From the NCBI GenBank assembly GCA_026984515.1, contig JALSRZ010000173.1, forward strand, positions 1 through 32,057: a DNA stretch of 32,057 nucleotides, in the 5' to 3' direction. Positions within the stretch are counted from its first letter, which is position 1. The number at the start of each line of letters is the position of its first letter. Below, one piece after another: positions 3,470-25,955 of the stretch. Below the pieces are notes generated by a model. It saw only the letters and a list, made by a program, of their open reading frames with translations, was not told the origin of the DNA and searched no databases. The stretch is from Thiohalobacter sp. (GTDB taxonomy: Bacteria; Pseudomonadota; Gammaproteobacteria; DSM-19610). A program made the position numbers and the translations under genes.

Positions 3470-3895
3470 ATGAAACGCGATGCAAGACACCAGCTCATGA
3501 AACTACCCAGCCCGATCACACCAAGACTGCTCCGCTTCCGGGACGCGCCCGCCTACCTGGGCATGGACCGGAACCGCTTTAACGCCGAGGTACGACCGTA
3601 CCTGGTTGAAATTCGCATCGGAATACAGGGCATTGCCTTTGATCGCCTTGATCTGGATGCCTGGGTAGACCACTATAAGTCCCGCAACGGGCGTTCCGGT
3701 CAACTCAGAGGAGATTTGACATGGGACGCAAAAGAACAGCCGGACTCTACGAGCGCAACGGGGTCTGGCATATCGACAAACACATCCGAGGCATCCGCAT
3801 TTGCGAAAGCACTGGAGAACGCCTCCTCGCAAGGGCGGAAGAATACCTCGCCAGGAAAACGGAGGAAGTCAGGCAGGCGGTCGTCTATGGAGTAA
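3470..3895 (+). CDS. Small DNA-binding protein preceding the integrase (excisionase-like)
   Basis: A 141-residue protein. Residues 18-65 contain a helix-turn-helix-like block (LLRFRDAPAYLGMDRNRFN, then a YLVEIRIGIQGIAFDRLDLDAW segment) of the kind seen in AlpA/excisionase-type proteins that read 'the DNA-binding site, then a hydrophobic hairpin'. Residues 75-141 are a Ser/Lys/Gly-rich disordered tail. Its last 175 bp overlap the integrase gene in a different frame (3721-3895). From memory, similar small proteins with the WDAKE...S.ISTN.SE...FAKALE tail precede integrases of this subfamily in other Proteobacteria, so the overlap is probably genuine. The ATG at 3470 lacks a good ribosome-binding site; an ATG at 3497 is an alternative. 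Its role in excision or integrase control is inferred. Confidence 0.65.
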   Translation: MKRDARHQLMKLPSPITPRLLRFRDAPAYLGMDRNRFNAEVRPYLVEIRIGIQGIAFDRLDLDAWVDHYKSRNGRSGQLRGDLTWDAKEQPDSTSATGSGISTNTSEASAFAKALENASSQGRKNTSPGKRRKSGRRSSME

Positions 3896-4824
3896 GGCCG
3901 AAACGCGCCTTTCGGCGGGCCGCAACCCGGTACCTGAATGAGAACCCGCACAAACGTCGTATCGCCGATACCGCATTGCACCTGAAACAACTGGACCCGT
4001 ACATCGGCGATCTGCCGATCGAATCGGTCCATATGGGAACACTGCAACCGTTTATCGAGGCACGGCGCAAGCAGGGGATCAAGACCAAGAGCATCAACCT
4101 CGCCCTGGGTGTGGTACGGCATATCCTCAATATCGCAGCATCGGAATGGCTGGATGGGAACAACCTCACCTGGTTGCAAACCCCGCCCAAGATCAAGTTG
4201 CTGCCGGTGACGGACGCGCGCAAGCCCTGGCCCCTGTCGTGGGAAGAGCAGGCGCGGCTGTTTCTGGAACTGCCGTCACACCTGGCGCGGATGGCGCTGT
4301 TCAAGGTCAACACGGGTACGCGGGACAAGGAAGTGTGTTACCTGCGTTGGGACTGGGAGGTGCCCGTTCCCGAACTGGAGACCAGCGTGTTCATCATCCC
4401 GGAGGATCGGGTGAAAAACGGTGAAGAGCGTTTGCTGGTGCTGAACCGGGTGGCCATGTCCGTAATCGAGGGGGTCCGCGGTGAGCACGACGACTATGTG
4501 TTCACGTATCGCGAGCATCCGATTGCGACCATGAACAACTCGGGGTGGCGAAGTGCACGCAAGCGTGCGGGACTTCCGCAGGTGCGGGTGCACGACCTCA
4601 AGCACACCTTCGGCCGTCGATTACGGGCGGCCGGGGTAAGCTTCGAGGACCGGCAGGACCTGCTGGGACACAAGTCGGGAAGGATCACTACACACTACTC
4701 GGCGGCCGAGTTAGAGAACCTGATCGAGGCTGCAAACAAGGTGTGCGGGGAAAACTCCCGCAAAAGTCCCGCACTGGTGTTGTTGAAGCAAAAGGCGGTT
4801 GCGGTAGGCGTTGTAACCGCATGA
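3721..4824 (+). CDS. tRNA-associated tyrosine recombinase / phage-type integrase
   Basis: A 367-residue integrase predicted to catalyse integration and excision of the element at the adjacent tRNA-Arg. Catalytic positions: Arg201 (NTGTRDKEV), Lys232 (VKNGEER), box II HDLKH (His291, with Lys294 where Arg is usual), His317 (LLGHKS) and nucleophile Tyr326 (TTHYS). The N-terminal 60 residues look like an arm-binding domain and 65-150 like a core-binding domain. The Lys for Arg replacement in box II occurs in this integrase subfamily and need not mean loss of activity. A strong ribosome-binding site, AGAGGAG at 3707-3713, is 7 bases before the ATG. The start lies inside the upstream small gene. 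The stop codon is 15 bp from the tRNA CCA end. Confidence 0.92.
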   Translation: MGRKRTAGLYERNGVWHIDKHIRGIRICESTGERLLARAEEYLARKTEEVRQAVVYGVRPKRAFRRAATRYLNENPHKRRIADTALHLKQLDPYIGDLPIESVHMGTLQPFIEARRKQGIKTKSINLALGVVRHILNIAASEWLDGNNLTWLQTPPKIKLLPVTDARKPWPLSWEEQARLFLELPSHLARMALFKVNTGTRDKEVCYLRWDWEVPVPELETSVFIIPEDRVKNGEERLLVLNRVAMSVIEGVRGEHDDYVFTYREHPIATMNNSGWRSARKRAGLPQVRVHDLKHTFGRRLRAAGVSFEDRQDLLGHKSGRITTHYSAAELENLIEAANKVCGENSRKSPALVLLKQKAVAVGVVTA

Positions 4825-12871: not shown

Positions 12872-15454
12872 ATGTCCGCCGTCCCCGAAGCCTGCAAACA
12901 CACCCCCATGATGCAGCAATACCTGCGCATCAAGGCCGAACACCCGGATATCCTGGTGCTGTACCGCATGGGTGACTTCTACGAACTGTTCTTTGACGAT
13001 GCACGCAAGGCTTCGGAACGCCTGGATATTACCCTCACCAGTCGCGGCCAGTCGGCGGGGGAGCCCATCCCGATGGCCGGTGTTCCGGTGCATGCGGTGG
13101 AACAGTACCTGGCCAGGCTGGTGCGCCAGGGTGAGTCGGTCGCCGTGTGTGAACAGGTCGGTGACCCGGCCACCAGCAAGGGGCCGGTGGAACGCAAGGT
13201 AGTGCGCGTCGTCACCCCCGGCACACTCACCGATGAGGCCCTGCTGCCGGAGCGGCGCGACAACCTGCTGGTGTCGGTGCACCGTGACGCGGAAGGGTAT
13301 TACGGCGTGGCTGCGCTGGACCTGTCGGCGGGGCGCTTCGTGGTCCAGGAGTTCAGCGGCGAGGAGACCCTGCTGGGGGAAATCGAGCGCCTGCAACCCG
13401 CCGAGCTGCTGCTCAGCGAAGACCTGTCCCTGCCGGACGCGCTGCAGCGGCGTGACGGGCTGCGCCGCCTCGCGCCCTGGCATTTCGATACCGAGAGCGC
13501 CGCGCGCCAGCTCAACCAGCAGTTCGGCACCCACGACCTGAGCGGTTTCGGTTGCCAGGACATGCCGGTCGCCGTGGCCGCCGCCGGCGCGCTGCTGCAC
13601 TACGTCAAGGACACCCAGCGCGCTGCCCTGCCCCACCTGCGCGGCCTGCGCACCGAATTGCACGAGGACAGTGTGGTCATGGACGCGGCCACGCGCCGCA
13701 ACCTGGAGCTGGACCAGGCGCAGTCCGGGCAGAAGGCGCACAGCCTGATCGCCGTGCTGGACAAGAGCGTGACTGCCATGGGCGGCCGCATGCTGCGACG
13801 CTGGCTGCACCGCCCGCTGCGCGACCGCGCCATCCTGGCGCGGCGTCACCAGTGCCTGGAATCCCTGCTGCAGGCGCGCCTGTTCGAGGCGCTGCGCGAA
13901 CAACTGCGCGGCAGTTGCGACCTGGAACGCATCCTGTCGCGCATCGCCCTGAAATCCGCCCGGCCGCGCGATCTGAGTGCCCTGCGCGACACCCTGGCAC
14001 GACTGCCCGGGCTGCAGGCCCTGTTACGTAATGACCATGACCCGCTACTGGGTGAACTCGCCGGCCGTATCCAGGAACACCCCGGCATCCATAAACTGCT
14101 GCGCCGCGCCTTACCCGACATTCCCCCCGCACTGGTACGCGACGGCGGTGTCATCGCCGTGGGCTACGACCAGGAACTGGACGAGCTGAAACGCCTCAGT
14201 GAACAGGGCGACCAGGTGCTTTTGGAAATGGAAGAGCGGGAACGCGAACGCTCCGGCATCGGCAACCTGAAGATCCGCTACAACCGCGTGCATGGCTATT
14301 ACATCGAGGTCAGCCGCGGCCAGTCCGACCGGGTGCCGGATGATTACCAGCGCCGCCAGACGCTGAAAGGTGTGGAACGGTTCATTACCCCCGAGCTGAA
14401 ATCCCACGAAGAGCGGGTGCTGAGCGCCCGCAGCAAGGCACTGGAACGCGAAAAGGCGCTCTACGCCGAACTGCTGGACAAGCTGCTCGAAGACCTGAAA
14501 TCCCTGTCCGGCTGTGCGGAGGGTCTGGCTGAACTGGACGTACTGACTACCCTTGCAGCGCGTGCCGATGCCCTGAACTGGTCACGCCCGACGCTGGTCG
14601 ATGAACCCGGCATCCGCATCCGCGGCGGCCGCCACCCGGTGATCGAACAGGTCAGCGAGGCCCCGTTCGTGCCCAACGATGTGCAACTGGACGACGCACG
14701 GCGCCTGCTGGTGATCACCGGCCCCAACATGGGCGGCAAATCCACCTACATGCGCCAGACTGCGCTGATCGTACTGTTGGCCTGCATGGGCAGTTTTGTC
14801 CCCGCCGACCAGGCTGACATCGGCCCGGTCGACCGGATTTTCACCCGCATCGGCGCCTCCGACGACCTCGCCAGCGGGCGTTCGACCTTCATGGTGGAGA
14901 TGACCGAGACCGCCAACATCCTCAACCATGCAAGCGACCGCAGCCTGGTGCTGATGGACGAAATCGGCCGCGGCACCAGTACCTATGACGGGCTGGCGCT
15001 GGCCTGGGCCGTGGCGCGTGAGCTGGGCGCACTGCGCGCCTTCACCCTGTTTGCGACCCACTATTTCGAACTCACCGGCCTGCCGGAAGAATTGCCGGCC
15101 AGCGCCAATGTTCACCTGGATGCCGTCGAGCACGGCGAACGGATCGTATTCCTGCACACCGTAAAAGACGGCCCGGCCAGCCGCAGTTACGGACTGCAGG
15201 TGGCCGCACTGGCCGGGGTGCCGGAGCACGTGCTGGAACAGGGGCGCAGCATCCTGCAGAAACTGGAAAGCGAACCCCTGCACGCGCCGCTGCAGAATGA
15301 CCGGCCGGCGCCGCAGATCGACCTGTTTGCCCGCCGGGAAGAGTCTCCGCTGGTGGATGCCTTCCAGGGCATCAAGCCCGACAACCTGACCCCGCTGCAG
15401 GCACTGGAGCTGCTGTACAAACTGAAGCAGATGGCGGAAGACACCGCACCCTAA
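12872..15454 (+). CDS. mutS: DNA mismatch repair protein MutS
   Basis: An 860-residue mismatch sensor ATPase that starts repair with MutL. The mismatch-contact segment reads [11 protein letters not shown] (the Phe-x-Glu motif) at about 37-47, and Walker [10 protein letters not shown] is at 617-625, followed by the ATPase motifs [30 protein letters not shown] and FATHYFEL. The ATG at 12872 is chosen because a typical short leader ([17 protein letters not shown]) follows; the Shine-Dalgarno is poor. The C-terminal end lacks a strong tetramerisation extension. The stop codon TAA lies inside an 11-bp tandem duplication. In Pseudomonas mutS is followed by fdxA; here an ompA/protease/wsp block intervenes. 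Confidence 0.98.
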
Positions 15455-15474
15455 CAGGCTGTTAACAGGCTGTT
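15453..15474. repeat. Tandem 11-bp duplication at the mutS stop
   Basis: AACAGGCTGTT is repeated exactly at 15453-15463 and 15464-15474; the mutS TAA stop (15452-15454) overlaps the first unit. It directly precedes the A-rich end of the ompA terminator. It may be a replication-slippage duplication or a scar from an element. Confidence 0.8.
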
Positions 15475-15475
15475 G

Positions 15476-15505
15476 AAAAAAACGGGCCCTGAAAAAGGAC
15501 CCGTT
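15476..15505 (-). terminator. Intrinsic terminator of the OmpA-like gene
   Basis: On the minus strand the stem AACGGGTCC/GGGCCCGTT (one mismatch, 15505-15497 with 15489-15481) is followed by a run of U residues (A tract at 15476-15482). It lies 21 bp after the stop of the minus-strand gene. On the plus strand there is no T tract, so it is not primarily a mutS terminator. Confidence 0.88.
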
Positions 15506-16322: not shown

Positions 16323-16802
16323 TCAGCCGGTGACCGCGCCGCAATTGCTCAATCCCAGGCTGGGGGGATTGGTGGAAAAGGTAAAGGGCGCTGCTTTTTT
16401 GAGCGCACTCAAACCCAGCAGCATGCGGGTTTTATCCGGGAAAACAGCGGCTTCGATATTGGTCAGTACGCAGCCGGCACCCAGTACCAGGCGTTTTATA
16501 CTGTACACTGGCAGCCGCAGCTGGGTACCGTCCGCCATTACACCCGTCAGTTCGCCCACGTACTCGGCATTATTCGCCTGTAACAACTGCTGCAGCGTGA
16601 CTTCATTGATGGTCGTGTAGCCGGCCCCGGTATCCACCATGAATTCCACATTGCCGCTGCCCTGCATGCTGGCTTCGATGTAATAGGTCGCCAGCTGCTT
16701 CTGGTTCATGGGGATGACGTGAAAGGAATCGGCGGCCGGCAGCAGCCCGCTGTTCAGCAGGGTAAGCACTCCGAGTACGGGTTTCAGGAAGGGGCGCATC
16801 AT
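16323..16802 (-). CDS. Secreted retropepsin-like aspartic protease
   Basis: A 159-residue protein with an N-terminal signal sequence (hydrophobic stretch LKPVLGVLTLLNSGLLPAA, residues 6-24) and a single retropepsin-like domain. The catalytic motif VDTGAG (Asp57-Thr58-Gly59) is preceded by NVEF and followed by YTTINEVTL; the second hydrophobic-hydrophobic-Gly motif of the fold is seen in MLLGLSAL. One lobe only, so it would act as a homodimer in the periplasm. The substrate is unknown. It lies upstream of the OmpA-like gene in the same direction (119 bp gap), so these may be co-expressed. Two adjacent ATGs (16802, 16799) are possible starts, neither with a strong ribosome-binding site. Confidence 0.85.
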   Translation of the reverse strand: MMRPFLKPVLGVLTLLNSGLLPAADSFHVIPMNQKQLATYYIEASMQGSGNVEFMVDTGAGYTTINEVTLQQLLQANNAEYVGELTGVMADGTQLRLPVYSIKRLVLGAGCVLTNIEAAVFPDKTRMLLGLSALKKAAPFTFSTNPPSLGLSNCGAVTG

Positions 16803-16933
16803 GATAATCCGGCAATAGTGACAAATTTCTGTCGTTATTCAGGATAACGGCACCTCAAAGGCCAAACTGAACGCCTTCCGCCATCCTGCGTCGCACTCGC
16901 CCAGGGGCGCGGCCGTAATATATTTTCTCTATA

Positions 16934-16950
16934 TTTAACAACCTGTTAAA
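16934..16950. promoter_or_regulatory. Palindromic operator candidate upstream of wspA
   Basis: TTTAACA-ACC-TGTTAAA is a perfect 7-bp dyad around 3 bases, inside an AT-rich patch. It lies 90 bp upstream of the -24 element of the predicted sigma-54 promoter, the usual distance for an upstream activator site. The cognate activator is unknown. Confidence 0.55.
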
Positions 16951-17039
16951 ACACCCAAAAACCAGGGGGTCGATACGGCCGGCGTTTTCAGGGTAGCCGC
17001 TATCGCGTCCGGCAGCCGTAAACACGCCCTTTTCCATCG

Positions 17040-17055
17040 TGGCAAGCAATTTGCA
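17040..17055 (+). promoter_or_regulatory. Sigma-54 (RpoN) promoter of the wsp operon
   Basis: TGGCAAGCAATTTGCA differs from the consensus TGGCACG-N4-TTGCW at only one position. The invariant GG (17041-17042) and GC (17053-17054) are 10 bp apart, as required. The start point would be near 17066, giving a leader of about 50 bases before wspA at 17119. Confidence 0.75.
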
Positions 17056-17118
17056 GTTCCGGTGATTGATGACCTCGCCCAAGTGTCGGGCTGCCCGGGA
17101 AAAGTGAGAACCGAAACC

Positions 17119-19140
17119 ATGCGAATAGAAAAATTTTCAGTGAAGGCACTCACGGTGAGCATGCTGCTGATCGTGGGCATCGTAGCGGTAGCCATGGCCT
17201 TCGTATCGGAAACCGAATACCGCAGCGCCGCGGTACAGGCGCAGACCGGCACCGTTGCACGGATCCTGCAGGTTGCCAGCGATGCCACGCTCGACCAGCT
17301 GGTCGCCGACAGCCAGCAGCTTGGCGCAGCAGCGGCCAAGGCCCTGTCGCGGCAACCGGAACTGGGCAGCTACCTGGCAGAAGCGCCCGCAGGCACCGCC
17401 AACCCCATGCTGCAGAAACTGCTGGCGGCACCACTGAAATCCGGATTGCCGCAGGTGCAGGCCACCTCGGTACGACTCTACAACGCCAACAAACAATTAC
17501 TCATGCAGGCGGGAGACCATGAGAGCGGCGACCAGGTCGCGCTCAAGAACGCCACCCCCGGGCAGGTGGCAGCCGCCTTCTGGCTGTCGGACAAGGGCAG
17601 TCGCTACTCGGTGGTGCGCTCGCTGGGTAACCAGACCGGGCGGGGCTACCTGGAGATCAGTTTTGACCCGCTTTTCAGCCTGCAACATGTGGCTGAACTG
17701 ACCCACCTGCCGCTGCGCATCGAGACCCTCTCCGGCGATACCCGTTTTGAGTCCGAACAGTGGCCCGCGCAGTCCGGCAAACTACAGGAAATACGCTACC
17801 AGGTGCTGGGCAAGGACCATGTCCCGCTTGCCCGGCTGACGGCACTGGATGATTTCTCGTCGCTGTACGACGCAACCCGGCAGACCCGCAACACCACCAC
17901 CGCGGCCTTTGTCGCGCTGATCGGGGCCGTTTTGCTGGTCGCCATCGTGCTCCTCAACCGTTTCCTGTTTCGGCCGGTGAAAACCATGACCAGTGACATG
18001 GACCGCGTTGCCAGCGGGGAAGAAGCCGACGCGCGGCTGGGTGACCGCGCACTGAAAGAGTTCCACGCCCTGGCCAATGCCTTCAACCGCATGAATCAGC
18101 AGGTCCAGGACATCATCGAACGCGAGCGACAGGCGTCGGAAGACATCAAGGGCAAGGTCGAACTGATCCAGGATGTGGTAGCTATGGCCGCCGAGGGCGA
18201 CCTGACCGGCGAAATCATGGTGTACCGCGACCAGGACATCATTTCCGAACTGGCCACCGGCATCCAGCAAATGCTGAACAGCCTGAACTCACTGGTAGCC
18301 CGCATCCAGCAGTCCGGCGTGCAGGTCACTTCGTCCGCCACTGAAATTGCCGCCACCGCCAAACAGCAGGAAGCTACCGTCACTGAACAGGCCGCCACCA
18401 CCAACCAGATCAAGGCCACCGTGACAGAAATCACCGCCACCTCAAAGGAACTCCTCAACACCATGAACGAGGTGACCGAGGTGGCCTGGAAAACCTCCGA
18501 AGGCGCCAACGCCGGCCGCTCGTCCCTGCAGAGTATGGAAAAGACCATGCACCAGATGATGGAAGCCACCGATTCGATCGGCTCCAAGCTGGCGGTGCTG
18601 AGTGAAAAAGCCGGTAACATCAACACCGTGGTCACCACCATCAACCGCGTCGCCGACCAGACCAACCTGCTGTCACTGAACGCGGCCATCGAAGCCGAAA
18701 AGGCAGGTGAATACGGAGTCGGCTTTGCCGTCGTCGCCACGGAAATCCGCCGCCTTGCCGACCAGACCGCGGTTGCCACCTGGGACATCGAACAGATGGT
18801 GAAGGAAATGCAGTCCGCGGTATCGGCCGGCGTGATGGGTATGGAAAAATTCTCGGAAGAAGTACGCCACGGCGTCGAGGATGTGCGCCAGGTCGGCTCC
18901 CAGCTGGCACACATCATCGAGCAGGTGGATACGTTGATCCCGCGCTTTGAAGAGGTCAACGAAGGCATGAATTCACAGGCCCAGGGCGGCAACCAGATCC
19001 GTGATGCCATTGTTCAGCTCAGCGAATCCGCGCAACAGACCGCCGACTCGCTGCGCCAGTCCAACGGCGCCATCATGCAGCTGAACGAAGCGGCCAACCG
19101 GCTCCAGGAAGGCGCCTCCCACTTCCGGGTCAGTTCCTGA
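17119..19140 (+). CDS. wspA: WspA membrane chemoreceptor (MCP)
   Basis: A 673-residue methyl-accepting receptor of the Wsp surface-sensing system. TM1 (about 8-30: LTVSMLLIVGIVAVAMAF), a periplasmic sensor of about 230 residues, TM2 (about 259-281), a HAMP domain (about 281-335) and a long cytoplasmic signalling coil are visible. The tip reads AAIEAEKAGEYGVGFAVVATEIRRLADQTAVAT, and the EKAGEYG variant with QTAVAT is typical of WspA. It clusters with six Wsp genes in canonical order. The start at 17119 is chosen because it directly precedes the first transmembrane helix; upstream in-frame starts would only add a soluble extension. The wspB gene begins 10 bp after its stop. Confidence 0.93.
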   Translation: MRIEKFSVKALTVSMLLIVGIVAVAMAFVSETEYRSAAVQAQTGTVARILQVASDATLDQLVADSQQLGAAAAKALSRQPELGSYLAEAPAGTANPMLQKLLAAPLKSGLPQVQATSVRLYNANKQLLMQAGDHESGDQVALKNATPGQVAAAFWLSDKGSRYSVVRSLGNQTGRGYLEISFDPLFSLQHVAELTHLPLRIETLSGDTRFESEQWPAQSGKLQEIRYQVLGKDHVPLARLTALDDFSSLYDATRQTRNTTTAAFVALIGAVLLVAIVLLNRFLFRPVKTMTSDMDRVASGEEADARLGDRALKEFHALANAFNRMNQQVQDIIERERQASEDIKGKVELIQDVVAMAAEGDLTGEIMVYRDQDIISELATGIQQMLNSLNSLVARIQQSGVQVTSSATEIAATAKQQEATVTEQAATTNQIKATVTEITATSKELLNTMNEVTEVAWKTSEGANAGRSSLQSMEKTMHQMMEATDSIGSKLAVLSEKAGNINTVVTTINRVADQTNLLSLNAAIEAEKAGEYGVGFAVVATEIRRLADQTAVATWDIEQMVKEMQSAVSAGVMGMEKFSEEVRHGVEDVRQVGSQLAHIIEQVDTLIPRFEEVNEGMNSQAQGGNQIRDAIVQLSESAQQTADSLRQSNGAIMQLNEAANRLQEGASHFRVSS

Positions 19141-19150
19141 GGCGAAAACC

Positions 19151-19609
19151 GTGTTGATGCTGCTGTTTCAACTGGGGACCAGCCGTTACGCCATCCCGGT
19201 AATGGAAGTGGTGGAAGTAACGCCACAGGTGGAACTGGAAACCATCCCGCTGGCGCCCGTCTGTGTGTGCGGCCTGTTCAATTACCGCGGTCAGCACGTG
19301 CCGGTCATCGACCTGTGCCGGCTGATCAACGACACACCCTGCAGCAATTCTTTCACCAGTCGCATCATCCTGGTGAACTATCCGCTGGCGGACGGCAGCC
19401 AGCGCGTGCTCGGCCTGCTCGCCGAGCGCGTTACCGAAACCGTCGACATTGCCCCTGAGCACTTCACCAGCACCGGCCTGAACATGGAGGGTACACCCTG
19501 CCCCGGTCAGGCGGCCCGCTGCGAACCCGGACTGGTGCAGCACATCACCACCTCTGAACTGCTCCCTGAAGCCATCCAGTCACAGCTGTTCCCGGCCGAG
19601 GCCGGCTAG
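19151..19609 (+). CDS. wspB: WspB, CheW-type coupling protein
   Basis: A 152-residue CheW-domain adaptor coupling the WspA receptor to the WspE kinase. Typical CheW sequence: LLFQLGTSRYAIPVMEVVEV, then GLFNYRGQHVPVIDLCRL and a RIILVNYPL beta-strand. GTG (19151), TTG (19154) and ATG (19157) are consecutive in-frame start candidates; GTG is preferred because GAGG at 19139-19142 lies 8 bases upstream. It is a simple single-domain CheW with several cysteines in the middle. It abuts wspC with no gap (TAG then ATG). Confidence 0.92.
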   Translation: MLMLLFQLGTSRYAIPVMEVVEVTPQVELETIPLAPVCVCGLFNYRGQHVPVIDLCRLINDTPCSNSFTSRIILVNYPLADGSQRVLGLLAERVTETVDIAPEHFTSTGLNMEGTPCPGQAARCEPGLVQHITTSELLPEAIQSQLFPAEAG

Positions 19610-20866
19610 ATGTCACTGCCGGCCATTGCATCCCTGCTGAAACAGCACATGGGCCTGCACAGCTCGACCGTGGGTTCGGGTACCATCAGCCAGGCCGTGG
19701 AGCGGCGTATGCGCGACTGCGGCATCAACGATATCGGTGACTACCACAACATCATCAGCCAGTCCGAAACCGAGTTAAACGAACTCATCGACACGGTAGT
19801 GATCCCGGAAACCTGGTTCTACCGCGACCGCAACCCGTTTTCCGCCTTCAGTGACTGGGTGCGGCATAACTGGCTGGCTGGCTCCGCACACACCCCGCTG
19901 CGCATCCTGAGCGTACCCTGCTCCACCGGCGAGGAACCCTATACCCTGGCCATGTGCCTGGCCGACTGCGGGATGGCCGCTGCCGATACACACATCGACG
20001 CAATCGATATCAGCAGCACCAATATTGAACGGGCACGCCAGGCCCGTTACGGTAATAACTCTTTCCGCGGCGGCGACCTGCGTTTCCGCGACCGCTACTT
20101 CGAGTCGGTCGGTACGCGTTTCCAGCTGACAGACGCTATCCGCCAGCGCGTGCACTTTGAGCAGGCCAACCTGCTGGAGCAGGACTTCAGCACGGGCCGC
20201 GCCCCCTACCACGTGATCTTCTGCCGCAACCTGCTGATCTATTTTGATCGCCCCACCCAGCACCAGGCCATCGACCGGCTGGAACAGTTACTGACCAGTG
20301 ACGGCATCCTGTTCCTGGGCCATTCGGAAACCAGCCTGCTGCTGGAACGCCCTTTCTCGGCGCTGGAGTTTCCACGCTGCTTCGGTTTTCGACGCGCGGA
20401 AAAAGAAAGCCGCACAGACCACGCTCCGGCATCACGCAACAAACCGAAAGCGCCACGCAAACGCGACAGGCTTCCCGTGACAGCTCCACTGCCCTTTGCT
20501 GAAGTCGAAGCCGGGAAGGAGTTGCACACGGTTGAGACCGGGGACAACGATGTACTGTTACAGAAGGCTTTTCGGCTTGCCGACCAGGGACACCTTGACG
20601 AAGCCGCCCGTCATTGTGAGACCCTGTTGCAACAACACGCGCTGCAGGCCGATGCGCATTACCTGCTGGGCCTGATCCGTGAAGCGGCCGGCAATAGCGC
20701 TGAAGCGGAGCGTATGTTCCGCAGGACCGTGTACCTGGACCCCACGCACTATGAAGCACTCGCGCACCTCAGCGTGATCTGCAGGCGACAGGGTGACAGC
20801 GGCGAGGCCCGGCGTTTCCACGAGCGGGCGGCACGGGTCCAGCGCCATAACCGGGGTACAGGCTGA
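19610..20866 (+). CDS. wspC: WspC, CheR methyltransferase with TPR tail
   Basis: A 418-residue S-adenosylmethionine-dependent methyltransferase that methylates WspA glutamates to keep the pathway active. The CheR catalytic core occupies about 1-265, with the SAM-binding segment LRILSVPCSTGEEPYTLA and the IFCRNLLIYFD motif. A charged linker (about 266-310) leads to tetratricopeptide-like repeats (about 310-415: FRLADQGHLDEAARHCETLL, ADAHYLLGLIREAAGNSAEAE, HYEALAHLSVICRRQGDSGEA). CheR fused to TPRs is the hallmark of WspC. The ATG follows the wspB stop directly, and its stop overlaps the wspD start by one base (TGATG). Confidence 0.94.
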   Translation: MSLPAIASLLKQHMGLHSSTVGSGTISQAVERRMRDCGINDIGDYHNIISQSETELNELIDTVVIPETWFYRDRNPFSAFSDWVRHNWLAGSAHTPLRILSVPCSTGEEPYTLAMCLADCGMAAADTHIDAIDISSTNIERARQARYGNNSFRGGDLRFRDRYFESVGTRFQLTDAIRQRVHFEQANLLEQDFSTGRAPYHVIFCRNLLIYFDRPTQHQAIDRLEQLLTSDGILFLGHSETSLLLERPFSALEFPRCFGFRRAEKESRTDHAPASRNKPKAPRKRDRLPVTAPLPFAEVEAGKELHTVETGDNDVLLQKAFRLADQGHLDEAARHCETLLQQHALQADAHYLLGLIREAAGNSAEAERMFRRTVYLDPTHYEALAHLSVICRRQGDSGEARRFHERAARVQRHNRGTG

Positions 20867-21555
20867 TGACGGACCACTACCGTGATGATGCAGTGACCCT
20901 GGACGATTGCTGGAACCGCATCGGGGTCTGGAGCACGGAAAAGGCCAGCTGCCCCGAACTGCAGCGTTTCGTCCACTGCCGCAATTGCGAACGTTACTCG
21001 GCAGCCGGCCGAAAGATGCTGGAACGCCCGGTGCCGGGGGCCTACCGCCAGGAATGGACCCGGCGCTTTACCGATGCCCGTGACACGGACCGGGACGCAA
21101 GCCGCTCGGTGCTGCTGTTCCGCCTGGGTGACGAATGGCTGGCCATGGACAGCCTGTTTGTCAACGAAATCACACCCATGCGCACCATCCACAGCCTGCC
21201 ACACAAAACCGGGGCGGCGATCAAGGGCCTGGTCAACATTCGCGGTGAACTGAAAATCTGCATTTCCATCGGCGCCATTCTGCAACTGGACAAGGCGCGC
21301 GAGTCCTACGTTACCGATCACGAAATACTGGAGCGCATGATCTTTATCGAAAAGGAGGGTCAGAGTTTCGTGTTCCCCGTCAGCGAAGTGCACGGCATTT
21401 TCCACTACACCGACGGCACCCTGCAGGCCTTGCCGGCCACCGTGGCCAAATCCCGGCAGACCTATACCAGCGGCATCCTGTGCTGGAACGAACGGCACGT
21501 CGGGGTACTCGATCACGAATTGCTGTTCTATGCCCTGTCCCGGAGCCTGCAGTGA
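20866..21555 (+). CDS. wspD: WspD, CheW-type protein with cysteine-rich N terminus
   Basis: A 229-residue protein. Residues 75-215 are a CheW domain (LLFRLGDEWLAMDSLFVNEI, IKGLVNIRGELKICISI, FVFPVSEVHGIFHY). The N-terminal 60 residues carry Cys15, Cys29, Cys38 and Cys41 (C-x13-C-x8-C-x2-C) flanked by aromatic residues. The second CheW between CheR and the hybrid kinase is characteristic of Wsp operons. It may bridge WspE and WspA together with WspB. The four cysteines might bind a metal or be redox active, which is inference. It overlaps wspC by one base and wspE by 4 bases (GTGA). Confidence 0.92.
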   Translation: MTDHYRDDAVTLDDCWNRIGVWSTEKASCPELQRFVHCRNCERYSAAGRKMLERPVPGAYRQEWTRRFTDARDTDRDASRSVLLFRLGDEWLAMDSLFVNEITPMRTIHSLPHKTGAAIKGLVNIRGELKICISIGAILQLDKARESYVTDHEILERMIFIEKEGQSFVFPVSEVHGIFHYTDGTLQALPATVAKSRQTYTSGILCWNERHVGVLDHELLFYALSRSLQ

Positions 21556-23828
21556 GCGAGGACCTGGGCGATTTCTCGATGCTGGAACTGTTTCGCCTGG
21601 AGGTGGACAACCAGGCGGCCATCCTCAATGACGGCCTGCTGGCACTGGAACAGGATGCACAGTCGGCGCAACACCTCGAGGCACTGATGCGTGCAGCGCA
21701 CTCGATCAAGGGCGCCGCGCGCATGGTCGACATCGATAACGGTGTCAGGCTCGCACACGCCATGGAGGATTGTTTCGTGGCCGCCCAGCAGGGTGAACTG
21801 CAACTGGCGCCACAGCAGATCGATCTGTTGCTAAAGGGTGTAGACCAGTTGATTGCCATATCCACCGGGCAGGCCGACGCAGAAGCGCTCTCGATCCTTA
21901 CGCAACAGATAGAAACCATGGAACAAGCGGAGCCAGCGGCGGAAAAGACCGCGCTACCGGCAACAGCAGACAGCGGGACCGGTGTGGAACCACCATCACA
22001 GGTCCCGGCCGACGACCCGGCCGACCCCGGCGTAGCGGCGGACGCAAGCCCGGCACCCGCCGCGAGTGCCCACAGCACAGCGGCCAGCGAAGCCGGCGTG
22101 CGGGTATCCTCCGAAAGCCTCAACCGACTGGTCGGCCTGGCCGGTGAAGTACAGGTTGAATCACGCTGGCTGCACCCGTTTTCCGACGCACTGCTGCAGA
22201 TCAAGCACCGCCAGGCTGAACTCATCAGCCTGCTGGACCGCCTGAACGAAAACCTTCATTCCAGTGGCAGTATCGAGTACAGCCGCACGCTCGCCAGTGA
22301 AATCCAGACCAAGGCCAACCGCTGCCGCCACCAGCTGAGTGACCGGCTGGTGGAACTGGACAGCTATGACCGGCGCATGCACAGCCTTGGCAACCGCCTG
22401 CACCAGGAAGTCATCACCAGCCGCATGCGGCCGTTCTCCGATGTGACACGCGGCTTCCCGCGCATGATCCGCGATGTCGCCAGGCAGCTGGGCAAGCAGG
22501 TGGATTTCAGAATCGAAGGTCTGTCCACACAGGTGGACCGCGATATCCTGGACTGCATAGAAGCGCCCCTGAACCACCTGTTACGCAATGCACTGGATCA
22601 CGGTATCGAGACGGTCGAGGAACGCCGCCAGGCCGGCAAACCTGAACAGGCAAGCCTGCGCCTGAGCGCCATGCACAGCGCCGGTATGCTGTCCATCCAG
22701 GTAGAGGACGACGGTCGCGGCATCGACCTGGAAAAACTGCGTAGCAGCATCGTCACCAAGGGCATGGTCAATGCAACCATGGCCGCGGAGCTGAACGAAA
22801 CCGAACTGCTGGAATTCCTGTTCCTGCCCGGCTTTTCGACCCGTGACGAGGTCACCGAAATCTCCGGCCGCGGCGTCGGTCTGGATGTAGTCCACAGCAC
22901 AGTGCAGCAAATGCGTGGCGTGGTACGCGCCACCAGCAACAAAGGTGCGGGCACCCGTTTCCACCTGCAACTGCCATTGACCCTGTCGGTCATCCGCGCG
23001 CTGCTGGTGGAAATCTGCGGGGAACCCTATGCCATCCCGCTGGCACGCATCGACCGCACGCTGCGGCTCGACACCAGCCAGGTCGAATCGCTGGAAGGCC
23101 GCCAGTACTTCACGCTTGGCACCCAGCACGTGGGACTGGTATTCGCCAGCCAGGTACTGGGCTGCAACGGCAGTGCCGAGCGCGGAGATTTCCTGCCGGT
23201 CGTCGTACTGGGTGAACGCCTGCACCTGTCGGGCCTGGTGGTTGACCGTTTCATCGGTGAACGCAACCTGGTGGTGCATACCATCGATCCGCGCATGGGA
23301 AAAATCCAGGACATCAGCGCCGCCTGCCTGCTGGAAAACGGTGATCCCTGCCTGATCATCGATGTGGATGACATGCTGCGCTCCATCGACATCCTGATCG
23401 CCGGCGGACGCCTGAACCGCATACAGGACAAGCAGGACAGCAGCGACGTACACAGCAAGCGCATCCTGGTGGTCGACGACTCGATCACGGTGCGCGAAGT
23501 CGAGCGCAACATGCTGGTATCGCGTGGCTATCACGTCGACGTCGCGGTCGATGGCATGGACGGCTGGAACGCCGTGCGCACGGAAGACTACGACCTGGTC
23601 ATCAGCGATATCGACATGCCGCGCATGAACGGCTTTGAGTTCGTCCGCCTGATGCGCCAGGACGAGCGCCTGGGCAAAACCCCGGTCATGATCGTGTCCT
23701 ACAAGGACCGTGAAGAAGACCGGCAGCGCGGGCTGGAAGCCGGCGCAGACTATTACCTGACCAAGGGCAGCTTTCACGATGAAACCCTCATCGACGCCGT
23801 CCTCGATCTGATCGGTGCAGCGGAGTAG
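21552..23828 (+). CDS. wspE: WspE, CheA-REC hybrid histidine kinase
   Basis: A 758-residue chemotaxis-type kinase that phosphorylates WspR and WspF. Domains in order: HPt with His50 (MRAAHSIKGAARM), an Ala/Pro-rich linker (about 130-175), the dimerisation helices, the HATPase with LLRNALDHGIETVEER and DDGRGIDLEKL (N and G1 boxes) and GRGVGLDVV, a CheW-like P5 domain, and a C-terminal receiver with phosphoacceptor Asp686 (VISDIDMPRMNG) and Lys in LTKGS. The start is GTG at 21552, inside the wspD stop overlap. CheA with a fused receiver in this order is typical of WspE. Confidence 0.94.
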   Translation: MSEDLGDFSMLELFRLEVDNQAAILNDGLLALEQDAQSAQHLEALMRAAHSIKGAARMVDIDNGVRLAHAMEDCFVAAQQGELQLAPQQIDLLLKGVDQLIAISTGQADAEALSILTQQIETMEQAEPAAEKTALPATADSGTGVEPPSQVPADDPADPGVAADASPAPAASAHSTAASEAGVRVSSESLNRLVGLAGEVQVESRWLHPFSDALLQIKHRQAELISLLDRLNENLHSSGSIEYSRTLASEIQTKANRCRHQLSDRLVELDSYDRRMHSLGNRLHQEVITSRMRPFSDVTRGFPRMIRDVARQLGKQVDFRIEGLSTQVDRDILDCIEAPLNHLLRNALDHGIETVEERRQAGKPEQASLRLSAMHSAGMLSIQVEDDGRGIDLEKLRSSIVTKGMVNATMAAELNETELLEFLFLPGFSTRDEVTEISGRGVGLDVVHSTVQQMRGVVRATSNKGAGTRFHLQLPLTLSVIRALLVEICGEPYAIPLARIDRTLRLDTSQVESLEGRQYFTLGTQHVGLVFASQVLGCNGSAERGDFLPVVVLGERLHLSGLVVDRFIGERNLVVHTIDPRMGKIQDISAACLLENGDPCLIIDVDDMLRSIDILIAGGRLNRIQDKQDSSDVHSKRILVVDDSITVREVERNMLVSRGYHVDVAVDGMDGWNAVRTEDYDLVISDIDMPRMNGFEFVRLMRQDERLGKTPVMIVSYKDREEDRQRGLEAGADYYLTKGSFHDETLIDAVLDLIGAAE

Positions 23829-23836
23829 ACCGGTTT

Positions 23837-24883
23837 ATGTTGAAAATTGCAGTTGTGAACGACTCCCTGATGGCCGCGGAAAGCCTCAGGCGGGTAGTCG
23901 AGAGCGTGGCGGAATACAAGCTGGTATGGACCGCCAGCAACGGGGTCGAAGCTGTACAACGCTGCAGTGAACACTGCCCGGATATCATCCTGATGGACCT
24001 GATCATGCCGGAAATGGACGGTATCGAGGCCACGCGTCGCATCAGTGCGGACTTCGACTGCGCCATCCTGGTCGTTACCGCGACGGTCAACGGACACGCC
24101 GGCAAGGTCTTTGAGGCCATGGGTGCCGGCGCCCTGGACGCGGTCAATACCCCGGTGCTCGGCACATCCGGCCTGAGCGAAGGCCATGATGTGCTGGTGC
24201 ACAAGATCGACACCATCGCCATGCTGTTACACAGCAAGCCATACCGGGGGAAACGCCCGGCTGCAGCGCTGCGAGCACCGTCGGGCGAAGGGGGGGTGCC
24301 ACTGATCGCCATCGGCGCTTCCACGGGTGGGCCCTCCGCGCTGCGCGAAGTACTGCAGGCGTTGCCACCAGAGTCCGGCGTCGCGATTGCCATTGTTCAG
24401 CATGTAGATGAGCAGTTCTCCGCCGGTTTAACGGCGTGGCTCGACGAACACGCACCGTTACCGGTCCGCCAGGCACGCCCCGGCGACCGTTTTGAAGCCG
24501 GTGTTGCACTGGTGTGCGGGCGTGAAGACCACCTGGTCCTGAGCGCCGACGGCAGCCTGGACTACACCCCGGAGCCGCGCCGGCTGGCGTATCGCCCCTC
24601 GGTCGACGTTTTTTTTAATAGCCTTGCAGAAAACCATTCAAATCAAACAGTTGGCGTATTACTCACCGGCATGGGCAAAGACGGTGCCGTGGGACTCAGG
24701 GCGCTGCGTGAGCGCGGCTGGATAACCCTTGCTCAAGATCAGGAAACATGTGCCGTTTACGGTATGCCAAAAGCCGCAAAAGAGCTTGATGCAGCAAAGG
24801 AAATTCTGCCACTCGGCAAGATCGGGCCACGCCTGGCCGAGTGGGCGGAACAGGCCTCCGGCAGAGGCGGGGAAAAACAGTAA
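23837..24883 (+). CDS. wspF: WspF, CheB methylesterase response regulator
   Basis: A 348-residue protein that demethylates WspA and dampens the pathway; loss-of-function alleles in Pseudomonas give wrinkly, high c-di-GMP colonies. The receiver (1-120) has Asn-Asp-Ser in place of the usual acidic pair (VVNDS) and phosphoacceptor Asp54 (LMDLIMPEMDG). The methylesterase domain carries the triad Ser162 (GASTGGPSA), His189 (QHVDEQF) and Asp282 (GMGKDGAVG). VNDS is also seen in other WspF proteins, so the variant is not a sign of decay. It starts 8 bp after wspE. Confidence 0.94.
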   Translation: MLKIAVVNDSLMAAESLRRVVESVAEYKLVWTASNGVEAVQRCSEHCPDIILMDLIMPEMDGIEATRRISADFDCAILVVTATVNGHAGKVFEAMGAGALDAVNTPVLGTSGLSEGHDVLVHKIDTIAMLLHSKPYRGKRPAAALRAPSGEGGVPLIAIGASTGGPSALREVLQALPPESGVAIAIVQHVDEQFSAGLTAWLDEHAPLPVRQARPGDRFEAGVALVCGREDHLVLSADGSLDYTPEPRRLAYRPSVDVFFNSLAENHSNQTVGVLLTGMGKDGAVGLRALRERGWITLAQDQETCAVYGMPKAAKELDAAKEILPLGKIGPRLAEWAEQASGRGGEKQ

Positions 24884-24887
24884 CGGG

Positions 24888-25955
24888 ATGACAAGGGATA
24901 CCGACATTCAAGGGGAAGCACCGGACAGCGACGAAGGCCGCTGGGTGGTCGTGCTGCTGGTCGATGACCAGGCCATGGTCGCCGAGGGTATTCGTCGCAT
25001 GCTCGCCGACGAACCGGATATCGAGTTTCACTACTGCGCTGATCCGAAACAGGCTGTCAAGCAGGCGGTCGCCGTCAGGGCGACCATTATCCTGCAGGAC
25101 CTGGTAATGCCCGAAGTGGACGGCATGACCCTGGTCCGTTTCTACCGCAACAACCCGACTACGCGTGATATTCCGGTGATTGTCCTGTCCAGCAAGGATG
25201 ACCCGGTCATCAAGAGTGACGCTTTCACCAACGGGGCCACCGACTACCTGGTCAAACTACCCGAGAAAATCGAGCTACTGGCCAGGATTCGTGCTCACGC
25301 CAAAAGCTACCTGGCGCAGAAGGAACGCGACGACGCCTTCAAGGCGATGGAAAAAATGCAGGGCCAGTTGTCCGCAATCAATAACGAGCTTGCCCACAGC
25401 AACCGGGAGCTGAAACGCCTGTCGTCCATGGACGGTCTGACCGGCCTGGCCAACCGCCGGCAGTTCGACGAAACCCTGGAGCAGGAGTGGCAAAGAGCGA
25501 TCCGCACCGAGCTGCCCCTGTCGCTGCTGTTTGTCGACATCGATTATTTCAAACGCTACAACGACAGCTACGGTCACCAGGCCGGGGATGACTGCCTCAA
25601 AAAGGTCGCTGCCAGCCTGCAGGAAACCGTACACCGACCCGCGGACCTGGTCAGCCGTTACGGGGGCGAGGAATTCGTCATGATCCTCCCGGACACCACC
25701 AGCGAAGGCGCGCTGGCAGTGGCGGAAAAAGTGCTGGTCAATATCGCCGGCCTGAATATCCCGCACAAGAATTCGGATTCCGCCGATCGCGTCACACTCA
25801 GTATCGGCGTTGCCACCCTGCACCCGGAAGAAGGCTCGGACTGCAACGAGTTGATCGAGGCGGCCGACAAGATGCTGTACCGGGCCAAGGACAACGGCCG
25901 CAACTGTATTGAAGTCACGCAACCCGTGGAACGACTGCAGAGCGTGCTGCGCTAA
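24888..25955 (+). CDS. wspR: WspR, REC-GGDEF diguanylate cyclase
   Basis: A 355-residue response regulator that makes c-di-GMP from two GTP when phosphorylated by WspE. A receiver (about 20-140) has phosphoacceptor Asp71 (LQDLVMPEVDG) and Lys in YLVKLPEK. A coiled linker (about 145-185, rich in Glu/Gln/Lys) leads to a GGDEF domain (about 190-345) with GGEEF at 259-263 and the inhibitory I-site RPAD at 250-253, nine residues before the GG as in Pseudomonas WspR. So the enzyme should be active and feedback inhibited. The ATG at 24888 gives the canonical length; longer in-frame starts would lie inside wspF. The stop is followed by a 69-bp gap to fdxA. Confidence 0.95.
   Translation: MTRDTDIQGEAPDSDEGRWVVVLLVDDQAMVAEGIRRMLADEPDIEFHYCADPKQAVKQAVAVRATIILQDLVMPEVDGMTLVRFYRNNPTTRDIPVIVLSSKDDPVIKSDAFTNGATDYLVKLPEKIELLARIRAHAKSYLAQKERDDAFKAMEKMQGQLSAINNELAHSNRELKRLSSMDGLTGLANRRQFDETLEQEWQRAIRTELPLSLLFVDIDYFKRYNDSYGHQAGDDCLKKVAASLQETVHRPADLVSRYGGEEFVMILPDTTSEGALAVAEKVLVNIAGLNIPHKNSDSADRVTLSIGVATLHPEEGSDCNELIEAADKMLYRAKDNGRNCIEVTQPVERLQSVLR

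Follow-up and report, generated by a model that had tools for sequence, protein, structure and literature searches.

The wsp operon and its surroundings

The window, by which we mean the whole 32,057-nucleotide stretch of Thiohalobacter sp. DNA analysed here, carries on its plus strand a complete wspA-B-C-D-E-F-R operon, directly downstream of a site that reads as a sigma-54 (RpoN) promoter. Domain searches place wspA, which encodes an MCP-type receptor of 673 aa, at 17119–19140, with its ATG start codon at 17119, followed by wspB (CheW; 19151–19609), wspC (CheR with TPR; 19610–20866), wspD (CheW; 20866–21555), wspE (a CheA hybrid; 21543–23828, scanned from 21480), wspF (CheB; 23837–24883) and wspR (a REC-GGDEF diguanylate cyclase; 24888–25955). 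The Pfam domain order is thus MCP / CheW / CheR-TPR / CheW / Hpt-HATPase-CheW-REC / CheB / REC-GGDEF, and both this make-up and the order of the seven genes are those of the Pseudomonas wspABCDEFR operon. The best PDB matches of the last gene product include the WspR structures 3bre, 3i5b and 3i5c as well as the REC-GGDEF protein 3i5a, with an E value of 1e-110 against the solved WspR structures. Because all seven domain assignments fall into place and the last gene matches solved WspR structures, the operon can be called complete, as the initial annotation had proposed.

The sensor of Pseudomonas WspA is smaller than the one found here. Structure prediction gives the WspA periplasmic region (about residues 40–250) a pLDDT near 90, within a whole model whose pTM of 0.40 denotes low overall confidence. 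The predicted region is matched by the sensor of KinD, with weaker matches to those of Tlp3 and DctB, and a Cache-like fold is accordingly predicted for the periplasmic domain.

Between 10125 and 26348 the gene order reads recA ... mutS – ompA-like – aspartyl protease – wsp – ferredoxin, with wsp lying between mutS and the ferredoxin-like gene. The aspartyl-protease-like gene (16323–16802, minus strand, assigned by domain search) is divergent from wspA and shares its intergenic region. Towards its left end the window has two phage-type integrase genes, at 460–1326 and 3721–4824. At the end of mutS (15451–15476) lie two overlapping TTAACAGGCTGTTRA-type dyads; similar ones close other genes of this genome, and they may form part of terminators.

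An RpoN-type site ahead of wspA

The site itself, TGGCAAGCAATTTGCA, occupies 17040–17055 on the plus strand and differs at a single position from the consensus TGGCACGNNNNTTGCW. Throughout the genus an A stands in place of the C at consensus position 6, a point that counts against the promoter reading. Its GG (17041–42) and GC (17053–54) doublets are separated by exactly 10 bases, in a TGGCA...TTGC context and at a proper distance from the gene, 64 bp before the wspA ATG. The coordinates, the single mismatch, the doublet spacing and the 64 bp had been claimed from the sequence beforehand, and the motif is present letter for letter. From sigma-54 geometry, transcription is predicted to start 12 bp past the GC doublet, at 17066, which would give a 5' leader of 53 nt. 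A consensus scan, of a kind that an additional weak sigma-70 promoter could escape, found no sigma-70-like site on the plus strand of the region.

With a weighted score, whose matrix is an approximation to the published consensus and not a curated one, the site at 17040–17055 ranks best among the RpoN-like sites of the window, and sites as good are expected by chance only 0.07 times per shuffled window and 0.0007 times per shuffled intergenic region. A loose consensus search, on the other hand, shows no excess in the window, with 25 matches at two mismatches or fewer where 23 are expected. Genome-wide pattern matching with the exact TGGCA-N6-TTGCW string returned 32 matches, as opposed to 9 for the reversed control (3.5-fold), and since the control is itself matched this often, a lone match to the string is weak evidence.

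Conservation across one WspA clade

The site is conserved in relatives. GGCA-N7-TTGC, with the exact GG-N10-GC spacing, precedes wspA in 17 of the 17 members of one WspA clade whose upstream region is readable (at a further six loci, L012, L014, L015, L016, L076 and L134, the upstream region is not readable, and they are outside this count), and the clade spans two families. GGCA and TTGC are constant in all 17, while the bases between them vary. The readable bearers are ten from the window's own family, five from the second family, f122 (L072, L073, L131, L132 and L133), together with L130 and with L186 of genome G140. Within the ten genomes of the window's family the site is read as TGGCAAGCAATTTGCA (three times), TGGCAAGCATATTGCA, TGGCAAGCAAATTGCA (twice), AGGCAAGGAAATTGCA, AGGCAAGAAAATTGCA, CGGCAAGAATATTGCA and TGGCATCCAATTTGCT; in f122 it is TGGCATCGAACTTGCT, TGGCACCCTTCTTGCC, TGGCACCGAACTTGCT (twice) and TGGCACCCATTTTGCT (twice), the last two standing 256 and 316 bp from the ATG. 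Across the clade the distance from site to ATG varies from 60 to 316 bp. In L132 and L133, where 256 and 316 bp separate the intact promoter from wspA, this interval contains a REP-like palindromic stretch (CGTCATCCCCGCGAA...GGCGGGGATCC), which lengthens the leader by about 150–220 bp.

The promoter persists despite a changed intergenic sequence and a changed upstream gene (mutS or a divergent aspartyl-protease gene). It persists as well in G140 (L186, at G140:C1:2065500-2070400), where TGGCACCCTTCTTGCT lies 63 bp before a wspA start codon situated further inside the open frame. The receptor there is of wsp type, with an N-terminal sensor half unlike that of the rest of the clade, to which it aligns from residue 237 onward only; mutS was not found upstream within the 4.9 kb read. 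Further sites of equal quality are rare in the surrounding DNA, with 3 in about 159,000 positions over both strands of 16 relative loci. A tree built from the receptors' signalling domain unites all carriers of the site in one group with 100/100 support, and the 17 cases, coming from related members of a clade, are not independent events. The clade's hosts appear to be relatives of marine sulfur-oxidisers, in which the promoter seems to have been kept through evolution.

Outside the clade the picture is quite different. When the span from 400 bp before the open frame through to the conserved part of the gene was scanned, 47 of 48 control receptor genes lacked an RpoN site, among them at least 23 that are trailed by wspB- and wspC-like genes; a site is likewise absent from f94 (L075), the sister group. 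In f122 mutS adjoins wspA, and it does so in some other lineages that have no RpoN site. Several of the outside receptor genes adjoin mutS, as the f122 operons do, and yet have no site, so being next to mutS is not enough to entail the promoter. The sole control with a site is L185 (G287:C283:4600-6900). This MCP gene belongs to family f2, has TGGCATTTTGTTTGCA 75 bp upstream of its start and probably encodes a lone RpoN-driven receptor; no wspB- or wspC-like genes were found after its relative L017. The simplest reading of this distribution would be that RpoN control was gained once, at the base of the clade, or else that the surrounding lineages lost it.

The 17040 motif might also be taken for a palindromic operator (GCAA-T-TTGC) that binds a repressor or activator, given that in the window, as in some relatives, GCAATTTGC forms a perfect 9-base palindrome, but we reject this as exceedingly improbable, since the left arm is not kept (relatives have GGAA, GAAA, CCAA, CGAA or CCTT) while GGCA and TTGC are invariant at fixed spacing. 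An RpoN promoter ahead of wsp is, on this comparative evidence, strongly supported.

RpoN and its activators in the host

The genome from which the window derives, whose closest named relatives are MAGs of Thiogranum and Thiohalobacter, encodes one rpoN and 12 activators with a sigma-54 interaction domain, 11 of which have the GAFT/GSFT-type loop needed for sigma-54 contact; the one without a GAFTGA loop is an NtrX-like protein. From their sequences and NCBIfam matches the activators read as FleQ-like, FleR-like, PilR-like, NtrC, NtrX-like, NorR-like, GlrR-like, PrsR and others, and of these names only PrsR passes a curated NCBIfam cut-off, the remaining ones being sequence readings. RpoN sites precede fliL, fleS, fliD, fliK and flgB as well as the gene of a PEP-CTERM-like protein, which argues that RpoN is in real use in this host.

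A scan with boxes for FleQ, GlrR, NtrC, NorR, TyrR and the PEP-CTERM system found none that recurs before wspA in the clade relatives. The same scan did recover two boxes that served as positive controls, the GlrR box ahead of the gene next to glrR in the downstream direction and a PEP-type box ahead of the gene for the PEP-CTERM-like protein. At two loci, L110 and L107, TGTC-N10-GACA boxes of GlrR type lie upstream of RpoN sites, at distances of about 104 and 125 bp; the genes that have such boxes are the one after glrR and one for an exported protein with a Golvesin_C domain, from which a small GlrR regulon is predicted.

Among the named proteins PrsR, the response regulator of PEP-CTERM and exopolysaccharide genes, deserves separate mention as a candidate activator, in which case wsp would be co-expressed with matrix genes. 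It is found in 13 of 16 clade genomes, the protein of the window's genome scoring 713 bits against a cut-off of 502.6, and in Aquincola a PEP-CTERM gene is known to be RpoN-dependent (PMC9850573). We nevertheless think PrsR a distinctly improbable activator of wsp. The PEP-CTERM-like gene (L125) is preceded by a TGTC-N9-GACA box that has no counterpart upstream of wspA in relatives, and G002, a genome 99% complete, keeps the wsp promoter with no match above the PrsR cut-off, which disfavours PrsR as the sole activator in particular.

The dyad at 16934–16950

Upstream of the promoter, in an AT-rich island, lies the perfect dyad TTTAACA-ACC-TGTTAAA (16934–16950), again exactly as the initial annotation had described it. 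There it had been taken for the binding site of the enhancer-binding protein. We have weighed this against two other readings, and the dyad remains a candidate activator, IHF-like or divergent-gene site.

It may have nothing to do with wsp, belonging instead to the divergent aspartyl-protease gene or being a chance dyad in an AT-rich spacer, a reading that we hold to be somewhat doubtful. Measured from the centre of the dyad to one fixed codon in the divergent gene, the distances fall into two tight groups, 226–227 and 247–249 bp, two helical turns apart, and the region's only sigma-70-like match is on the minus strand with the dyad as its -35 box. That gene has, however, a conserved block of its own closer to its start codon, TAACGACAGAAATTTGTCAC, found on the minus strand within 16800–16860 just before the gene and conserved across much of the genus; this block is likely to be the operator of the aspartyl-protease-like gene. 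G018, moreover, has no divergent gene upstream and still shows an IHF-like element beside its wsp promoter.

Such a resemblance to IHF sites is the basis of a further reading, according to which the dyad would bend the DNA and so help a more distant activator to reach the polymerase. Here the flagellar RpoN promoters of the same genus provide the reference. They share with wsp the GG-N10-GC core and an upstream IHF-like element, TAACNNNCTGATA, which stands at -32 (fleS/flrB; L151–L163) and -41 (fliL; L135–L148) from the -24 element, and the reverse complement of TAACNNNCTGATA fits the IHF consensus WATCARNNNNTTR. Before fliL there is in addition a GTCAAA-N5-GNC block, whose GTC-N8-GAC pattern fits the FleQ consensus and is not convincingly present before wspA; the TAACNNNCTGATA elements and this block are candidate IHF and FleQ boxes of the genus. 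A matrix built from the flagellar sites scores the window dyad at 15.1, a high rank within the 13.0–17.7 range of its own members, and it picks out comparable elements upstream of wspA in L005, L008, L009, L013, L073, L132 and L133. One of these, L013, has a perfect TATCAATTAGTTA at -29 that fits the IHF consensus in full, and the window dyad departs from WATCARNNNNTTR by one mismatch in each orientation. Against this, position 3 of the consensus is A and not T in the wsp sites of the genus in both orientations, and the element is farther from the promoter at wsp and more variable in its distance than at other RpoN promoters, loose where the fliL and fleS elements are fixed. We hold an IHF-like role for the dyad to be rather unlikely.

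The proposal that the dyad binds the enhancer-binding protein that activates the wsp promoter seems to us just as unlikely, and the dyad is weakly supported as an activator site. Its position is apt, the 7+7 dyad beginning 106 bp upstream of the -24 T, at the usual distance for an enhancer and within the 80–150 bp in which an inverted repeat would be sought. Related elements (TAAC-N5-GTTA or TTAC-N5-GTTA) occur in L004, L005, L008 and L009, most of them improbable in shuffles of their own regions. But an equally good dyad (arms of at least 7, spacer of at most 9) is present in 20% of cases when the 316-bp intergenic region is shuffled, and an unbiased dyad search retrieved TAAC-N5-GTTA in just 3 of 10 genus and family regions, as many as 4 of 100 shuffles also yielded; in f122 the same search led to motifs inside the coding end of mutS. 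The distance from dyad centre to -24 T is also loose, at 97, 110, 110, 130 and 131 bp with the window included.

Conservation, which had been put forward as a check on both motifs, separates them: the promoter is kept in 17 of 17 readable clade members across two families, while a degenerate form of the dyad is present in 5 of 9 congeners and the dyad is missing from most of f122, where the promoter persists. Four congeners (L006, L007, L010 and L011) have only AT-rich stretches or weaker elements at its place. Nor does the dyad fit the FleQ, GlrR, NtrC, NorR, TyrR or PEP-CTERM boxes. A genome search, from which co-regulated genes had been hoped for, gave no other exact intergenic copy and one further exact copy at a gene end, and so suggested no regulon. 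Of the original claim, then, the upstream placement usual for an enhancer stands, and against the assignment to an enhancer-binding protein speak the partial conservation, the loose spacing, the IHF-like appearance and the place between two divergent genes.

Discussion

Whatever the dyad may be, we consider it very probable that the conserved RpoN promoter at 17040–17055 drives the wsp operon and is opened by an activator. We infer transcription from this site, its start point and its need for an activator; given the promoter class, wsp would have to be turned on by an activator of the RpoN type. RpoN polymerase would wait at the promoter as a closed complex, which an ATP-driven enhancer-binding protein, one of the genome's 12, would open; transcription starting near 17066 would then lead to all seven Wsp proteins. 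The c-di-GMP made by WspR would in this way pass two gates, a transcriptional one governed by the activator's signal and one of protein activity governed by the signal of WspA.

The Wsp genes lead bacteria to settle on surfaces, and the system serves as a model of surface sensing and the switching-on of c-di-GMP; its regulation has mostly been studied at the protein level. The only study of a wsp promoter that we found, in P. putida, reports that PwspA is directly RpoS-dependent, with a CTATACT -10 box, and that the operon has several internal promoters (PMC11784136). No paper linking wsp to sigma-54 was found in the open-licence literature, and because the search covered open-licence papers only, this absence is weak evidence; it agrees with the initial annotation's remark that no description of such control was known to it, and a wsp operon under RpoN seems to be a variant not yet described. 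The nearest parallel is in Geobacter, where chemosensory operons likewise have predicted upstream sigma-54 promoters (PMC2577667), although the operons there appear to be che clusters and not wspA-F,R, and the predictions are for single genomes, with no clade-wide test of conservation.

More speculatively, and less likely than not, this may be a whole Wsp lineage in which c-di-GMP output is tied to a second cue through the RpoN activator that senses it, such that surface sensing comes into play only after the activator has fired, and in which this wiring was kept even through the exchange of the WspA sensor domain in G140. The state of flagellar assembly and the state of the envelope or matrix are candidate second cues. 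The conservation pattern makes activator-dependent expression of wsp directly testable. The contrast between RpoS control in P. putida (PMC11784136) and the RpoN-type promoter found here would mean that the same output module has come under different sigma factors in different lineages, and if the promoter is off without its ATP-driven activator, then in this lineage the sensor itself would be made only under a chosen condition.
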